Below are positions 31,505 through 38,586 of a stretch of DNA of 64,000 nucleotides, piece after piece. How positions within the stretch are numbered: position 1 is the first letter of the stretch; each line of letters starts with the position of its first letter. A program made the position numbers and the translations under genes. This DNA comes from Haloarcula marismortui ATCC 43049 (lineage in GTDB: Archaea > Halobacteriota > Halobacteria > Halobacteriales > Haloarculaceae), in contig NC_006396.1 of assembly GCF_000011085.1 (NCBI RefSeq), positions 2,790,001 through 2,854,000 of the forward strand, read 5' to 3'. The notes beneath the pieces are model-generated. The model was not told the origin of the DNA. It searched no databases and saw nothing but the letters and a program-made list of their open reading frames with translations.

Positions 31505-32272
31505 TCACGGAACGGCCAGCAAATTGTCGATCACCGCGACGTTCGCCTGCTCGAACACTGCCCGCATCTCGTCGCTCAGCGACACGTCCGTTATGAACAT
31601 GTCAATATCCTCGACAGTCGCGAACTCGCGGAAGCTCTGACTGTCCAGTTTGCTCCCGTCGGCCACCAGAATGACGTGTCGGCCGCCTTCACAGAGCAGT
31701 GTCTTGATGCGCGCTTCGTCTTCGTTCGAGACGGAGAGACCGCCATCGATCTGGACCGCATCGGTTTCGAGAAACACGATGTCGAAGTTCGTTTTCCGAA
31801 GGTATGACTCGGCGCTGGGACCGACGAGCGCGTCCGAGGTCTGGCGCAGTGAGTCGCCGACGACCTTGACCTCGCCACAAGTCTCGCGGAGTTCGAACGC
31901 GCTCTCCGGTGAGTTCGTCGCGGCAAGCAGCGACAACTGCTCCGGGATGGCTTTCGCTATTTCGCGCGCTGTCGGCCCCGTGTCGAAGAAGACGGCGTCG
32001 CCGTCGCTCAGTTCATCGACGGCGCGCTTAGCGATAGCCCGCTTGCCACTTGGGTTGTCGATACTATCGGCCGTACTGGACCCGTCTTTCTCCGACGCCG
32101 GAAGGGCACCGCCGTGAAACCGTTCGATAAGCCCGTCTTCTGCGAGTGACGAGAGGTCTCGTCGGATCGTCGCCTCGGAGACACCGAACTCTTCGGTGAG
32201 TTCTTCGACGGTGACCCGATCCGATCTGTTTACTTGTCGAACGATTTCTTTCCGTCGTTCATCAGGAATCAT
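31505..32272 (-). CDS. DeoR/GlpR-family sugar-responsive transcriptional regulator
   Basis: A 255-residue regulator. The N-terminal DeoR-type HTH is VTVEELTEEFGVSEATIRRDLSSL, followed by a phosphosugar-binding DeoRC domain (DGDAVFFDTGPTAREIAKAI, DGGLSVSNEDEARIK). It follows the sugar ABC operon on the same strand, separated by a hairpin and about 200 nt, so it probably has its own promoter. By family and position it is the likely regulator of that operon or of a sugar catabolic pathway elsewhere. Confidence 0.9.
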   Translation of the reverse strand: MIPDERRKEIVRQVNRSDRVTVEELTEEFGVSEATIRRDLSSLAEDGLIERFHGGALPASEKDGSSTADSIDNPSGKRAIAKRAVDELSDGDAVFFDTGPTAREIAKAIPEQLSLLAATNSPESAFELRETCGEVKVVGDSLRQTSDALVGPSAESYLRKTNFDIVFLETDAVQIDGGLSVSNEDEARIKTLLCEGGRHVILVADGSKLDSQSFREFATVEDIDMFITDVSLSDEMRAVFEQANVAVIDNLLAVP

Positions 32273-32360: not shown

Positions 32361-32380
32361 CGGCCCTGCTCTCAGGGCCG
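32361..32380 (-). terminator. Hairpin terminator after the sugar ABC operon
   Basis: A perfect 8-bp stem CGGCCCTG-CTCT-CAGGGCCG lies 94 nt downstream of the last operon gene (32474), between the operon and the DeoR-type regulator. On the minus strand the stem is followed by a moderately T/A-rich stretch. It probably ends the operon mRNA. Confidence 0.55.
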
Positions 32381-32473
32381 GCGACACAGTCTAGTGATTT
32401 GCGAGATTGCTCGATGGCGTTTAGGGGTATATCATTCAGTATGTAGACGTTCATGAAAAACTCTCTCCCGGTA

Positions 32474-32647
32474 CTAATCGGTGAAAACACCAAACAGCGT
32501 CGTGACGACTGTCCCGACACTGCTGACGATTGCGCCGCCGTAGACACCGGTCGCGTAATTGAAGACTGCGAGGCCTGCCAGCCCGAACGCAGTCCCGAAC
32601 ACGAGCATATCGGCGGGTGCCATCCTATCGGCGAGTTCCATAGCCAT
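32474..32647 (-). CDS. 57-residue membrane protein, last gene of the sugar ABC operon
   Basis: A short gene that starts only 2 nt after the TGA of the ABC ATPase gene. The protein is 57 residues and begins MAMELADRMAPADMLVFG. Two hydrophobic stretches follow (about residues 14-30 and 36-54) with an aromatic NYATGVYGG turn, and it ends TLFGVFTD. The tight spacing, same strand, clean hydrophobic pattern and position before the operon hairpin support a real gene. Its role is unknown; a small accessory subunit of the permease complex is a reasonable inference. The second Met (residue 3) is an alternative start. Confidence 0.75.
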   Translation of the reverse strand: MAMELADRMAPADMLVFGTAFGLAGLAVFNYATGVYGGAIVSSVGTVVTTLFGVFTD

Positions 32648-32649
32648 CG

Positions 32650-33780
32650 TCAGATCGTCGCCTGCTGTTCGATCTTCGCGTCGTACGTGAGCGATTCGCC
32701 CGTGGCGGGATCGAAATACTGGAGCGAGTCCCTGTCGAACCGGAGGTTCACCGCATCCCCCATCTCGACCGTCGTGTCGGGGTCAACCGCGGCCTTGATG
32801 CTCTGGCCGGTTTCGAGTTCGAGTTCGAGTACGGTCTTCTCGCCCTGCGGTTCGACGACCTCCACTGTTGCCGGGTGGACGTTCGCCGGGACGCCGTCCT
32901 GATTAAGCGCGATGTTCTCCGGGCGGATGCCCAGCGTCACGCGGTCTCCGAGATACGAGCTGAGCGCATCGGTGAACTCGTCGGGAACGTTGTGGATAGC
33001 GCCGCCGAGGTCCAGTTCGAACTTGCCGGCAGACGACTCTTCGAGCGTGCCTTCGAGGAAGTTCATGCTCGGTGAGCCGAGGAATCCGGCGACGAACATG
33101 TTCCGCGGGTTCGAGTACACGTGCGTCGGTTCGCCGACCTGCTGTATCTGCCCGTTGTCCATGACTGCGATCTGGTCGGCCAGGGTCATCGCCTCCACCT
33201 GATCGTGGGTGACGTAGACAGTCGTCGTCGAGAGTTCCTCGTGAAGTTTGTTCAGTTCGGCGCGCATCTGGACGCGGAGCTTCGCGTCTAAGTTCGACAG
33301 TGGCTCGTCCATCAGGAACACTGCCGGGTCACGGACGATTGCGCGGCCCAGCGCGACCCGCTGTTGCTGACCGCCGGATAGCTCCGACGGCCGCCGTTCC
33401 AGTAACTCTTCGATCTGTAGCAGCTCCGCTGTCTCTCGGACTCGTTCGGTGATGATCTCTTCGTCCGTGTCGTGTTGCTCCAGCCCGAACCGCATGTTGT
33501 CCCGCACCGTCTTGTGCGGATACAGCGCGTAGTTCTGGAACACCATCGCGATGTCCCGCTCGTATGCGCGAGCGTCGTTGACGACATTCTCGCCGATTCT
33601 GATTTCACCGTCGGTCGCCCGTTCGAGCCCCGCGATGAGGCGCAGAGTCGTGGTCTTCCCACACCCTGACGGGCCGACGAGGACAGTGAAACTTTCGTCG
33701 GGGATGTCCAGCGAGATGCCATCAACTGCCGTAACGTCGTCGAATTCCTTTACGAGGTCGGTGAGTTCTACGTGTGCCAT
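32650..33780 (-). CDS. Sugar ABC transporter ATP-binding protein (CUT1, MalK/UgpC type)
   Basis: A 376-residue ATPase. Walker A is GPSGCGKTT, the Q-loop region FQNYALYPHKTV is the MalK-type form, the signature is LSGGQQQR, Walker B is VFLMDEPLSNLD, and the H-loop is YVTHDQVEAM. A C-terminal MOBE/TOBE beta-domain (about 240-376) marks it as a carbohydrate importer. It is fourth in the operon. It energises the two permeases upstream and is followed by the 57-residue membrane protein. Confidence 0.95.
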   Translation of the reverse strand: MAHVELTDLVKEFDDVTAVDGISLDIPDESFTVLVGPSGCGKTTTLRLIAGLERATDGEIRIGENVVNDARAYERDIAMVFQNYALYPHKTVRDNMRFGLEQHDTDEEIITERVRETAELLQIEELLERRPSELSGGQQQRVALGRAIVRDPAVFLMDEPLSNLDAKLRVQMRAELNKLHEELSTTTVYVTHDQVEAMTLADQIAVMDNGQIQQVGEPTHVYSNPRNMFVAGFLGSPSMNFLEGTLEESSAGKFELDLGGAIHNVPDEFTDALSSYLGDRVTLGIRPENIALNQDGVPANVHPATVEVVEPQGEKTVLELELETGQSIKAAVDPDTTVEMGDAVNLRFDRDSLQYFDPATGESLTYDAKIEQQATI

Positions 33781-33786
33781 AGTTAG

Positions 33787-34707
33787 TTACTCCTTGACTG
33801 CTCCTTGTGTGAGTCCGCTCACGATGTACTGCTGGAAGAACAGGCCGAACAGGATGCCGGGTAACGCGGCAATCATCCCGCCGGCTGCCAGATGCGCCCA
33901 GTCCACGAAGTCGTCAGCTACGAACAGTGAGACCGCGATCGGAAGCGTCTGGGCCTGTTCCGAGGATGTGAGAACGAGCGCGAAGACAAACTCGTTCCAC
34001 GAGAAAATGAACGCGAGGATAGCAGTGGCCGCGATGCCCGGCTTCGCCATCGGCAGGATTATTTTGACAAACGCTTCCCAACGGGAACAACCGTCGATTC
34101 GGGCCTGCTCGTCCAATGATTCGGGAATACCGTCGAAGTAGTTCTTCATTATCCAGACGGCAAACGGGAGGTTGAAGAACGTGTACGTGAGGATGAGCGC
34201 GAGCCGCGTGTCGTACAGGCTCCCGGTGAGTCCGCCGATGAGCGGCGGGTTCGACATGATCTGGAAGAACGGGACGATCAGCGCGATGGGTGGAATCATC
34301 CGCGCGCCGACGATCGACAGCAGCAGCGACTTGTTCCCCAGGAAGTCATATCGGGAGAAACTGTAGCCGGTGACCGTTCCCAGAGTGATACAGATGAGCG
34401 TCGTCGTCGTCGCGACGATCATGCTGTTGATTGTATAGTTGTCGAACGGTCGGTTCGTGAAGATATCCACGTAGTTCTGTGCCGTCGGGCTCTGTGGGAG
34501 GAAGGTGATCGGCAGCGACAGCACTTCGCTTGATGGCTTGATGCTCGTAATGAAGATGTAGTAGATCGGGAACCAGATGATCAGGACGTATACGGCGAGC
34601 AGTCCGTAAGCCAGCAGTCGCTCGCGGGCAACGGACGGCCACTCGTTCTGTGTCTCCAGTCCCAGCGACCGACGTAGTCGGTTGAGTGGTGATTTCTTCG
34701 TGCTCAT
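33787..34707 (-). CDS. Sugar ABC transporter permease (MalG-like)
   Basis: A 306-residue inner-membrane permease with six helices. The EAA loop DEQARIDGCSRWEAFVKIILP contacts the ATPase. It begins MSTKKSPLNRLRR, with the ATG overlapping the stop of the preceding permease by 4 nt (ATGA), and ends 6 nt before the ATPase gene. It is the MalG/UgpE-type partner in a heterodimeric CUT1 channel. Confidence 0.94.
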   Translation of the reverse strand: MSTKKSPLNRLRRSLGLETQNEWPSVARERLLAYGLLAVYVLIIWFPIYYIFITSIKPSSEVLSLPITFLPQSPTAQNYVDIFTNRPFDNYTINSMIVATTTTLICITLGTVTGYSFSRYDFLGNKSLLLSIVGARMIPPIALIVPFFQIMSNPPLIGGLTGSLYDTRLALILTYTFFNLPFAVWIMKNYFDGIPESLDEQARIDGCSRWEAFVKIILPMAKPGIAATAILAFIFSWNEFVFALVLTSSEQAQTLPIAVSLFVADDFVDWAHLAAGGMIAALPGILFGLFFQQYIVSGLTQGAVKE

Positions 34708-35642
34708 GCTTCGTAGGGTGATTCGCCGAATATCTTGTACAGACTGGCCACGATGGCGAAGGTCACGGCCAGTAGGACGACCCCAAGTGCAGCGCCGGTC
34801 CCGGGTTCGTTGAATACCTGTGCGGTCCGGTACAGCCAGGAGGCCCATACCTCAGTCGCCTTCCCAGGGCCGCCCTGTGTCATCACCCAGACCAGATCCA
34901 GCGCCCGGATGTCGAAGATGATACGGATAGTCAGCGCGACCAGTATCGATGGTTTCAGGAACGGATACGTGACGTTCCAGAACCGGGACCACCGACTCGC
35001 GCCATCGACTTCGGCGGCGTCGTACAGCTGCTCTGGGACGTTCTGCAGGCCTGCGAGCAGGATGATGATGATGAAGGGGGTGAACACCCAGACGTCGGCG
35101 ATGATAAGCGCCATCATGGCGAGTGCGCCATCCGAAAGGAACGGGATGTTCCCCGAGATGACGCCGAGCCGCTGAAGCGCCCCGTTTATCGCGCCGAAGT
35201 CTGACTGGAACATCCAGCGCCACATCAGCCCGCTCATTACGTAGGGAAGAATCCACGGAACGATGACCGCTGTTCGGAACCAACCCCGCCCTTTCAGATC
35301 CTTATCGAGCAACAGCGCGATGCCAAGGCCGAGCAGGAACGAGATGGAGACGCTGAAACCGACGTAAATGACTGTGTTCGTCGTAATCGAAACGAAACTG
35401 GGACTGAACACGCCGAGGACGGCCTCGCCCCCTTCGCGTGCGAAGATCAACCGCCGGAAGTTCCGCAGGCCGACGAACTCCATCTCGTTCGTTACCGGGT
35501 TACGGAACTGGAAGCTGCTGAGAAACAGCTTCGCGGTCGGATAGACGATTATTGCGGCGATCCACAGCAGTGTCGGCCCAACCGTCAAAGGGACGAACAG
35601 CTTGTCGAGTTTGCGACGCAGTGGGCTCTTTTCAATGGACAT
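34704..35642 (-). CDS. Sugar ABC transporter permease (MalF-like)
   Basis: A 312-residue permease with six helices. The EAA loop is YDAAEVDGASRWSRFWNVTYP, and it is the MalF/UgpA partner of the next gene. The N-terminus is MSIEKSPLRRKLDK, similar in style to the other permease (MSTKKSPLNRLRR), suggesting old duplication or shared targeting. It overlaps the next gene by 4 nt and is 26 nt after the binding-protein gene. Confidence 0.94.
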   Translation of the reverse strand: MSIEKSPLRRKLDKLFVPLTVGPTLLWIAAIIVYPTAKLFLSSFQFRNPVTNEMEFVGLRNFRRLIFAREGGEAVLGVFSPSFVSITTNTVIYVGFSVSISFLLGLGIALLLDKDLKGRGWFRTAVIVPWILPYVMSGLMWRWMFQSDFGAINGALQRLGVISGNIPFLSDGALAMMALIIADVWVFTPFIIIILLAGLQNVPEQLYDAAEVDGASRWSRFWNVTYPFLKPSILVALTIRIIFDIRALDLVWVMTQGGPGKATEVWASWLYRTAQVFNEPGTGAALGVVLLAVTFAIVASLYKIFGESPYEA

Positions 35643-35668: not shown

Positions 35669-37009
35669 TCAGAGCAGACCGATGTCCTGGTAGAGGCGCT
35701 CAATGTTGCTGTAGGCGTCGTTGAGTGCTTTTTCGGGGTCTTTGTTACCGAGCAGCGCCGGCGTGAGCTGCTCGTTCAGATAGTCATCGACCTGTGGCTG
35801 TGCCATGTACGTCTCGCTTTTTGCGTTCTCGAGGTTGAACCGCATGTCTTCGAGCAGCCAGGACGGGTACTCGCTTTGGACCTCGTCGTCTTCGTACACC
35901 TCCGGAACGACAGCCGGGTTCCCTTCGACGAGCATGTTGTTCTTGGACGACTCGCGTGTCGTCATGAAGCGGGCGAACTCCTTGGCTGCGTCCTTCCGCT
36001 CGGAGAACGCAGAGACGCTGATGCCGTTCGTGTCCTGGAACGTTGCACGGCTTTCCGGCCCCTTCGGTGGCTTGGCGCTGCCGATGCGATTCTCGTCCCA
36101 TTCGTCAATTGCGCGGGCTCCAAGCGGCGTCCAGGATTCGACGGTCGCGTACTGGCCGGCGATGAAGTTGTCACCGACGCCACCCTCGCCGAGACTGGAC
36201 ATCCCGTCAGGCATGATGCCGCGCTCACGGAGCCCATTGAAGAACTCCAGTACCTCTTTGCCTTCCTCGACAAACACCGGCTCGTAGCCGTCGTTGAATA
36301 GCTGGCCGCCGGCTTGGTAGAGGAACTGCTTGAAACTGAATACGGACTTGCCGGCCCAGGTGAACGCGAACCCGGATTTGTCGCCCTGTGATAGCTGTTC
36401 GCCCTGACTCAGGACCTCATCCCACGTGTCCGGCGGCGCGTCGAAGCCCTGGTCGTTCAGGTACTGCTGGTCGTAGAGGTAGCTCCCCCACTTCCCGAAT
36501 TCGGGAGCCATGTAGGTCTGGCCGTCGAATTGGACGAGGTCGTTCAGCGAGTCGGGGAACTTGCTCATGTGGTCGCTTCCGAGGCCGATCGGCTCGAGCC
36601 AGTCGGAACTGACGAAGTCAGCCAGCCACCAGGTCGGGCCGTTGAACGCGTCGACGGTGCTGTCCTGGTTCCGCCAAATCGTCGTCAGACTGGTCTTGAG
36701 GTTGCTCCACGGAACCTCGTTGACTTCCACGGAGATACCGGTCTCCTCCTCGAAGCGTTCAATGTTGGCTTCGGTTCCGGGGTCGAACTCCAGCGACCCG
36801 GCGTTGTAGAACACGATTTCGTCTGCCATCGTCTCCGACCCAGTGCCGGTTGTGGCACCGTCTGAACTCTCACCGTCGGAACTATCGCCACCGGAGCCGT
36901 CTTCGGTGCTCGAATCGGAGCCGCCACTGCAGCCAGCAAGCGCCGCTGCCCCGATGACACCGGCACTTTTGATGAACGTTCGACGAGTGCGGTTTGAACT
37001 CTCTTGCAT
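35669..37009 (-). CDS. Sugar ABC transporter substrate-binding lipoprotein
   Basis: Extracellular solute-binding protein, family 1, 446 residues. The Tat signal RRTFIKSAG runs into the lipobox LAGC, so it is exported folded and anchored by lipid. A Ser/Gly/Asp linker follows, then the binding domain (EIVFYNAGSLEFDPGTEANIE onward). The substrate is not predictable; the UgpB/MalE-like fold points to an oligosaccharide or glycerol-phosphate type sugar. ATG 37009 gives MQESSNRTRR and fits a TATA box 26-35 nt upstream; a GTG at 37021 is less likely. First gene of the operon. Confidence 0.93.
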   Translation of the reverse strand: MQESSNRTRRTFIKSAGVIGAAALAGCSGGSDSSTEDGSGGDSSDGESSDGATTGTGSETMADEIVFYNAGSLEFDPGTEANIERFEEETGISVEVNEVPWSNLKTSLTTIWRNQDSTVDAFNGPTWWLADFVSSDWLEPIGLGSDHMSKFPDSLNDLVQFDGQTYMAPEFGKWGSYLYDQQYLNDQGFDAPPDTWDEVLSQGEQLSQGDKSGFAFTWAGKSVFSFKQFLYQAGGQLFNDGYEPVFVEEGKEVLEFFNGLRERGIMPDGMSSLGEGGVGDNFIAGQYATVESWTPLGARAIDEWDENRIGSAKPPKGPESRATFQDTNGISVSAFSERKDAAKEFARFMTTRESSKNNMLVEGNPAVVPEVYEDDEVQSEYPSWLLEDMRFNLENAKSETYMAQPQVDDYLNEQLTPALLGNKDPEKALNDAYSNIERLYQDIGLL

Positions 37010-37371
37010 ACAATCGCTCACGAAACAGCCATGGATTATAAATTATGGGGGTTATTAAATATGAAGATAAATATCATAGTTTATAGCATGAGCTTTTCTA
37101 TTGGCTCTTCAGCGTCTAAAATAGAATTTGAAGGTACAACTATCTTATAGTAATATTATTTATTAATTTGGAACTACTGTTTTGCGTGATTGATTTCGCT
37201 CACAAACCTGAATTGGGGCATGATTTGAACGAACCATTCACCGAATCGTGCAGACCTGGTAACCGTCTCGATCGGACTGCCGTCATTCGGTCCTGCATCG
37301 AGACTCCACAGGTCGCCTGTGACCCACATAACGCCGCGCGATTTAAGCCACCCCGCCCGGTATCGGTGCCC
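37010..37371. other. 362-nt AT-rich divergent promoter region
   Basis: It separates the sugar ABC operon (left) from the PQQ-propeller gene (right). The first 150 nt is strongly AT-rich with many ATTA words. It contains the ABC-operon TATA box at 37035-37044 and an inverted repeat TATGA-N9-TCATA at 37060-37078 that could be an operator. The second half is GC-richer leader DNA with a TATA-like GATTTAAG at about 37340-37347. No gene was found here. Confidence 0.5.
37035..37044 (-). promoter_or_regulatory. TATA box of the sugar ABC operon
   Basis: On the minus strand AATTTATAAT lies 26-35 nt before the ATG at 37009, predicting a leaderless mRNA for the binding-protein gene. Confidence 0.55.
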
Positions 37372-38586
37372 GTGACAGAGCGCGGACGGACACGGCGGGC
37401 ATTTCTGGGGACGCTCGCAGCGACAACAGTCGGGTCGGTCGCGGGGTGTCAGTCACAGTTCAATCCGCTTGCATCGACGGCGCTCGATGAACACGCCGCC
37501 ACGCAGTTCCGGCAGGGGCTGTTGAACCAGGGGCATCAGGATATGTCCGTTCCGGACGCCATCGAGCGGGCCTGGGAACTGCCGGCGAACCGCGGGGACC
37601 ACACCGCGGCAAAAGGGAGCCCTGCGCTGGCACCGACTGGCGACTTGATTCTGGCCGACGACACCGGCCGCGTGCGGGCCATCGCGCCGGACGGCGAGGT
37701 CCAGTGGGCAACAACAATTACACAGGCGACGCGAGGGAGCCACGGCACGCCGGCCATCGCCAACGATACCGTCTACATCGGGGCCTACGACGGCGCGCTG
37801 TCGGCACTGGACCTCGAAACCGGCCGGCGGCGCTGGCGGACGGACCTGGGCGATGCCATCGGCGCGAGTCCGACCTACTACAACGGGTCGCTGTACGTCG
37901 CTGTCGAGCACGCGGCTCCGAGCGGGAGCGTTGTCGCTGTCAACGCCGCGACCGGTGACGTGCAGTGGCGCGACAGCCGACCGACCGACCACCCCCACTC
38001 GACGGTGGCACTGGACCGCGAGCACGGCCGCCTGCTGTTTGGCTCGAACGACGGCTACTGCTACGCGTGGTCGTTTCCGGGTCTCGAACAGGTCTGGCGC
38101 TACGACACTGGCGGCGACGTGAAAGCCCCCATCGCCGTTGCTGATGGGACCGCCATCGTGCCGTCGTGGGCTGAGACAGTCACTGCCGTCGACGTGACCG
38201 ACGGTTCGGAACGGTGGACCTTCGAAGCCGACGCCGACGTGATGTGTGCGCCAGCGGTCCACGACGGCACCGTCTACGTCGGCAGCCACGACGACCGCGT
38301 GTATGCAATCAATCTCGCCAGCGGCGAAGAACTGTGGCGCTACGACACCGGCGGGTGGATTATCGGGAGCGTCGTCGCCACCCGGGACCACGTACTCGTC
38401 GGGTCCTACAACGGGCGGCTGTACGCACTGGAGCGGGACTCGGGTGCGGTGGCCTGGACCGTTGAGAACCGCGGCCACGTGACGAGTGCGCCGCTGGTGA
38501 CCGCTGATGGCATCTACTACACAGAACGCGCTGTCGACGGCGACCCCGACCGCCCGGGGATGTGCTACGGACTCGTTCCGGCATAA
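37372..38586 (+). CDS. PQQ-type beta-propeller lipoprotein
   Basis: A 404-residue exported protein. The Tat signal RTRRAFLGTLAAT is followed by the lipobox VAGC. Then come about seven propeller blades, each with the tryptophan-docking type pattern (for example GAYDGALSALDLETGRRRW, GSHDDRVYAINLASGEELW). Such proteins bind PQQ or act as BamB-like scaffolds; no catalytic dehydrogenase residues are recognised. The start is GTG (37372, or 37366), with a TATA-like box about 25 nt upstream giving a leaderless mRNA. Confidence 0.88.
   Translation: MTERGRTRRAFLGTLAATTVGSVAGCQSQFNPLASTALDEHAATQFRQGLLNQGHQDMSVPDAIERAWELPANRGDHTAAKGSPALAPTGDLILADDTGRVRAIAPDGEVQWATTITQATRGSHGTPAIANDTVYIGAYDGALSALDLETGRRRWRTDLGDAIGASPTYYNGSLYVAVEHAAPSGSVVAVNAATGDVQWRDSRPTDHPHSTVALDREHGRLLFGSNDGYCYAWSFPGLEQVWRYDTGGDVKAPIAVADGTAIVPSWAETVTAVDVTDGSERWTFEADADVMCAPAVHDGTVYVGSHDDRVYAINLASGEELWRYDTGGWIIGSVVATRDHVLVGSYNGRLYALERDSGAVAWTVENRGHVTSAPLVTADGIYYTERAVDGDPDRPGMCYGLVPA

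Follow-up and report, generated by a model that had tools for sequence, protein, structure and literature searches.

The 57-codon open reading frame called at positions 32474–32647 on the minus strand of the window, the 64,000-nucleotide stretch of Haloarcula marismortui ATCC 43049 DNA analysed here, is a conserved gene and not a chance ORF. Its translation (MAMELADRMAPADMLVFGTAFGLAGLAVFNYATGVYGGAIVSSVGTVVTTLFGVFTD) corresponds to an uncharacterised 57-residue membrane protein predicted to form two helices, and the gene is nearly strictly linked to, and closely coupled in position with, the CUT1 transporter genes that precede it. We consider it reasonably likely that the small protein is an accessory subunit of this importer, which it would stabilise or tune.

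The genome that contains the window is of Haloarcula type and comprises 4,274,642 bases, divided into 9 contigs. The minus strand encodes, in this order, a substrate-binding protein (35669–37021; SBP_bac_8/SBP_bac_1), a MalF-type permease 1 (34704–35642), a MalG-type permease 2 (33787–34707), a MalK/UgpC-like ATPase (32650–33780) and the 57-codon ORF. The closest solved relative of the binding protein is the Thermococcus trehalose/maltose-binding protein (PDB 1eu8, E=1.5e-24), both permeases carry a BPD_transp_1 domain, and the ATPase combines ABC_tran with TOBE_2 and OB_MalK domains and scores above the cutoff of NF008653 (UgpC), which together make up a CUT1 ABC importer operon. The two permease genes overlap by 4 nt, and permease 2 is separated from the ATPase by 6 nt. 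The ATPase stop codon ends at 32650 and the ATG of the small ORF lies at 32647, leaving the 2 nt that a sequence-only reading of this DNA had already reported, although without naming the minus strand. Downstream on the same strand, after a spacer, lies the gene of the DeoR-type repressor GlpR (31505–32272; NF041397 TranRegGlpR_Halo, above cutoff). Directly upstream of the binding-protein gene, a divergent gene (37168–38586, plus strand) encodes a beta-propeller protein (BamB/PQQ-repeat-like) with a lipobox-like motif.

An orthologue of the ATPase, defined by at least 85% identity, is present in 16 of the 32 Haloarcula genomes, and in all 16 it is followed by an ORF of 56–58 codons that begins at +2 nt or, in genome G032, at –1 nt (a one-base overlap); 15 of these ORFs are clearly homologous to that of the window. 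Among the seven closest Haloarcula, dN/dS values range from 0.05 to 0.39 (Nei-Gojobori), indicating purifying selection, and the variable sites are distributed as 19, 10 and 38 over the first, second and third codon positions. Comparison of the window with genome G014 gives approximately 9 non-synonymous changes over 129 sites and 14 synonymous changes over 42 (Fisher p ~7e-5, with rounded counts). At larger distances pN/pS climbs to 0.5–0.8; as synonymous sites saturate there, the argument for selection rests on the close clade. As a control for chance, we searched the window for stop triplets preceding a coupled ORF of 50–70 amino acids with two hydrophobic peaks: 5 of 2705 do so, whereas the same pattern occurs at 34 of the 35 orthologous ATPase ends read. 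The small size of the ORF and its position at the operon end could also fit a non-functional or purely cis-acting sequence, serving for instance to end translation near the end of the operon. We find this barely credible: synonymous change far exceeds non-synonymous change in close species and a motif is conserved across four families, so that these comparisons already speak against it.

The proteins of the family are 54–68 residues long and consist of a variable N-terminus, a hydrophobic helix, a conserved turn and a second helix. The turn follows the pattern (N/D/G)-(Y/F)-x-x-G-x-Y-(G/A), and L23, A27, Y31, G34 and G45 are nearly invariant. An AlphaFold2 model computed from six sequences places the helices at residues 11–33 and 38–56 with a moderate mean pLDDT of 68, in agreement with the earlier description of a protein made almost wholly of two hydrophobic helices. 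Short length and membrane-spanning helices, as predicted here, are features of small accessory subunits. Scans of Pfam, NCBIfam and PHROG gave sub-threshold matches only (best E ~0.04), and a PDB profile search with the small protein returned nothing up to E=10; none of these libraries thus offers a curated model of the family. A match to DUF6903 (E=0.047), obtained for one of 34 members, was judged to be noise. In the members encoded by a second type of operon, described below, the N-termini are basic and the turn reads G-(Y/F)-L-R-G-A-Y. Four of five such proteins carry 3–5 net positive charges within their first 12 residues, which would place the N-terminus inside and therefore suggests that both ends of the protein are inside.

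A profile built from the Haloarcula small proteins also matches other haloarchaeal families, where the genuine relatives sit directly behind the same ATPase. In the 392 genomes of the order, the extended profile recovered 31 copies of the small ORF and the ATPase orthologue was found in 32 copies in 27 genomes (73–100% identical, E <1e-130), in searches that scored the best few candidates per genome and in which absences are therefore soft. The two sets of copies pair one to one, with the exception of genome G015. Adding four Haloarcula genomes outside the order-wide sample brings the totals to 36 ATPase copies in 31 haloarchaeal genomes, 35 of them directly followed by a homologous hairpin ORF. 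In genus g38, where scoring covered all, or almost all, of the candidates, 8 of the 18 genomes carry the ATPase and these also carry the small ORF, with 13 copies of each, whereas the remaining 10 have neither. For Haloarcula and g38 taken together, 23 genomes carry both genes, one the ATPase only, none the ORF only and 26 neither; as these genomes are related to one another, a Fisher p for this table does not represent a true probability. At all 35 junctions read (35 of the 36 loci), a start codon lies between –4 and +3 nt from the ATPase stop; ATGA and GTGA overlaps are frequent, and a start with a 4-nt overlap is available at 18 of the 35. Genetic linkage to a single transporter across lineages, which is expected of small accessory subunits, is thus a property of this gene. 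The conservation of the frame at 35 of the 36 orthologous loci, the purifying selection and the nearly strict one-to-one association with the ATPase lend support to the suggestion, made when the ORF was first noticed, that its product could be a transporter subunit with a regulatory or stabilising role.

That reading had also proposed a search for short homologues beside haloarchaeal CUT1 operons; they accompany one subfamily, but not CUT1 operons at large. The same genome has nine readable CUT1-like paralogous ATPases, and a homologue follows none of them, so the small gene is a trait of one CUT1 subfamily and the idea that every CUT1 ATPase gene is followed by a small ORF of this sort was rejected. 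At one of these paralogous loci (L042), the next gene looks like a split permease. A phylum-wide profile search detected nothing outside haloarchaea; within the order, a weak extra match (E=7e-4) inside a 936-aa frame was treated as chance. The operon of Haloarcula pelagica is carried by a 479-kb plasmid (NZ_CP126162.1) and may therefore move between strains. Its small gene is annotated by NCBI as a hypothetical protein (WP_284011409.1), so at least one relative has escaped the fate ascribed to small genes of this kind, namely that they are usually missed. A tblastn search of plasmids with the 57-aa protein gave no match, a result of low sensitivity for such a short query, since the H. pelagica copy, present in the collection, was itself not matched.

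The small protein might instead have a job of its own, in stress response, in lipid metabolism or as a toxin-like protein, and be kept in the operon for co-expression only. At the amino-acid level its rate of evolution is roughly threefold that of the transporter core, and one lineage retains the importer after decay of the ORF, as would be expected in that case. However, no copy was detected away from this ATPase at E<1e-8 in the genomes searched, whereas a protein with an independent function would not be expected to be so confined, and we regard this explanation as unlikely. The lineage in question, G015 (L145/L058), has an ORF that is open and of similar length and position (L058:2637–2804), with mostly polar residues, 27–38% identity and pN/pS of 0.55–0.88. 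Its transporter genes are intact and 83–91% identical to those of the window, with 85–91% for the permeases and the ATPase. An assembly error is possible, although many changes would be needed; the small gene has probably decayed in this one lineage while the importer was retained. If so, at least one lineage can do without the gene, which suggests that the putative accessory subunit tunes or stabilises the importer rather than being essential to it, and G015 offers a comparison as a natural loss lineage.

The surroundings of the operon bear on two further explanations, which would connect the small protein with its genetic neighbours. The four core transporter genes accompany the small ORF in the operons examined; at L142 the frame of the binding protein is split. 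The glpR gene follows the small gene in the loci examined from Haloarcula, from families f4 and f7 and, for the first type of operon, from family f17. In f7 and in the first-type g38 loci (f17), glpR is itself followed by pfkB and by the fructose PTS genes EIIC, EIIA, EI and EIIB, which were named by NCBIfam for L137 and recognised by sequence in the other loci. At L137 (2226–7811), L140 and L144 (f17) and at L132 and L133 (f7), the CUT1 operon is immediately followed by glpR, pfkB and the fructose PTS genes, so that the ABC importer and the PTS seem to be combined there in a single GlpR-linked locus. The second-type operons with their small ORF, found in f17 genomes (L138, L139, L141 and L143), are placed by unrelated genes.

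Proximity to glpR, as observed in Haloarcula, in families f4 and f7 and at the first-type loci of f17, would fit a signalling link in which the small protein anchors the GlpR repressor at the membrane or releases it according to transport activity, in the way that the E. coli glucose PTS permease acts with Mlc. Such a link is quite improbable, since the four second-type loci keep the small ORF without an adjacent glpR and the parts of the protein outside the helices are short tails with no conserved surface. The PTS genes after the operon in f7 and g38 could likewise reflect a link between importer and PTS, for example inhibition of the importer when a PTS sugar is present (inducer exclusion). 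This we hold to be highly improbable, as Haloarcula and the second-type loci have no PTS genes adjoining the operon and the small protein is kept there. Retention of the small gene by the second-type operons without glpR argues that it belongs with the importer, and not with GlpR or the PTS. The same neighbourhoods say something about the cargo: because glpR, pfkB and the fructose PTS adjoin the operon in other families, they suggest that the substrate is a fructose-containing or fructose-yielding sugar, and Haloarcula marismortui grows on fructose (PMC3102087). Identity with the mannitol/sorbitol importer Msc was set aside from its described neighbourhood, which has dehydrogenases and an IclR-like regulator and lacks glpR (PMC11519228).

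Returning to the accessory subunit that we favour, we propose that translation of the small ORF would be coupled to that of the ATPase and follow it directly. The product would insert into the membrane as a tight hairpin, with a first helix at residues ~11–33, the turn N-Y-x-x-G-x-Y-G-G and a second helix at ~38–56. This hairpin may then pack against the permease dimer and would stabilise the assembled importer or tune its activity, by analogy with the action of AcrZ on AcrB. A bolder version, in which these transporters form a distinct haloarchaeal CUT1 subfamily whose built-in fifth membrane subunit, the two-helix hairpin, acts as a gate for transport or adjusts it, perhaps in concert with the fructose PTS that neighbours the operon in several families, seems to us rather unlikely.

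CUT1 sugar importers serve as models for ABC transporters, and a small companion of this well-known class would be new. In KdpFABC, the small operon-encoded membrane peptide KdpF stabilises the transport complex and is in these respects a parallel, but it serves a P-type ATPase system, has a single helix and is encoded by the first gene of its operon. AcrZ is encoded away from its partner. Small membrane proteins known to act on transporters include AcrZ, MgtS, MgtU and LucB (PMC10710835). The 49-aa AcrZ of E. coli is likewise tied to one transporter, AcrB, which it tunes (PMC10710835, PMC7267776); it differs in having one helix and in acting on an RND efflux pump, and no sequence relation is expected. 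LucB, a small transmembrane protein seen in the structure of a mycobacterial ABC importer and proposed to be a regulator (PMC10710835), is also comparable by function, but its partner is a lipid importer and not a CUT1 system, and it was found by structure rather than by operon linkage. The MscEFGK importer of Haloarcula hispanica and the Thermococcus MalEFGK have the same four core subunits as the importer described here, a binding protein, two permeases and an ATPase, and a set of four genes is the usual description of a CUT1 importer (PMC11519228); the present haloarchaeal subfamily differs by its fifth, closely coupled membrane gene. Should the product of this gene prove to be a fifth component, it would represent a new control or assembly part, kept in 35 of 36 operon copies of one subfamily.

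Beyond the stop codon, the spacer before glpR contains a G+C-rich hairpin with a stem of 7–8 bp (32361–32380, minus strand), about 93 nt downstream, which confirms that the ORF ends ahead of the operon hairpin as first described. All seven closest Haloarcula species retain the stem, while in one of them the loop is wholly replaced, and an Rfam search with this intergenic hairpin found no family. A run of five T residues (T5; 32456–32460, minus strand) lies nearer, 13 nt past the stop codon, and is kept in the alignment of the same seven species. From what is generally known of archaeal termination, this conserved run is a possible archaeal terminator and no weaker a candidate for that role than the hairpin.
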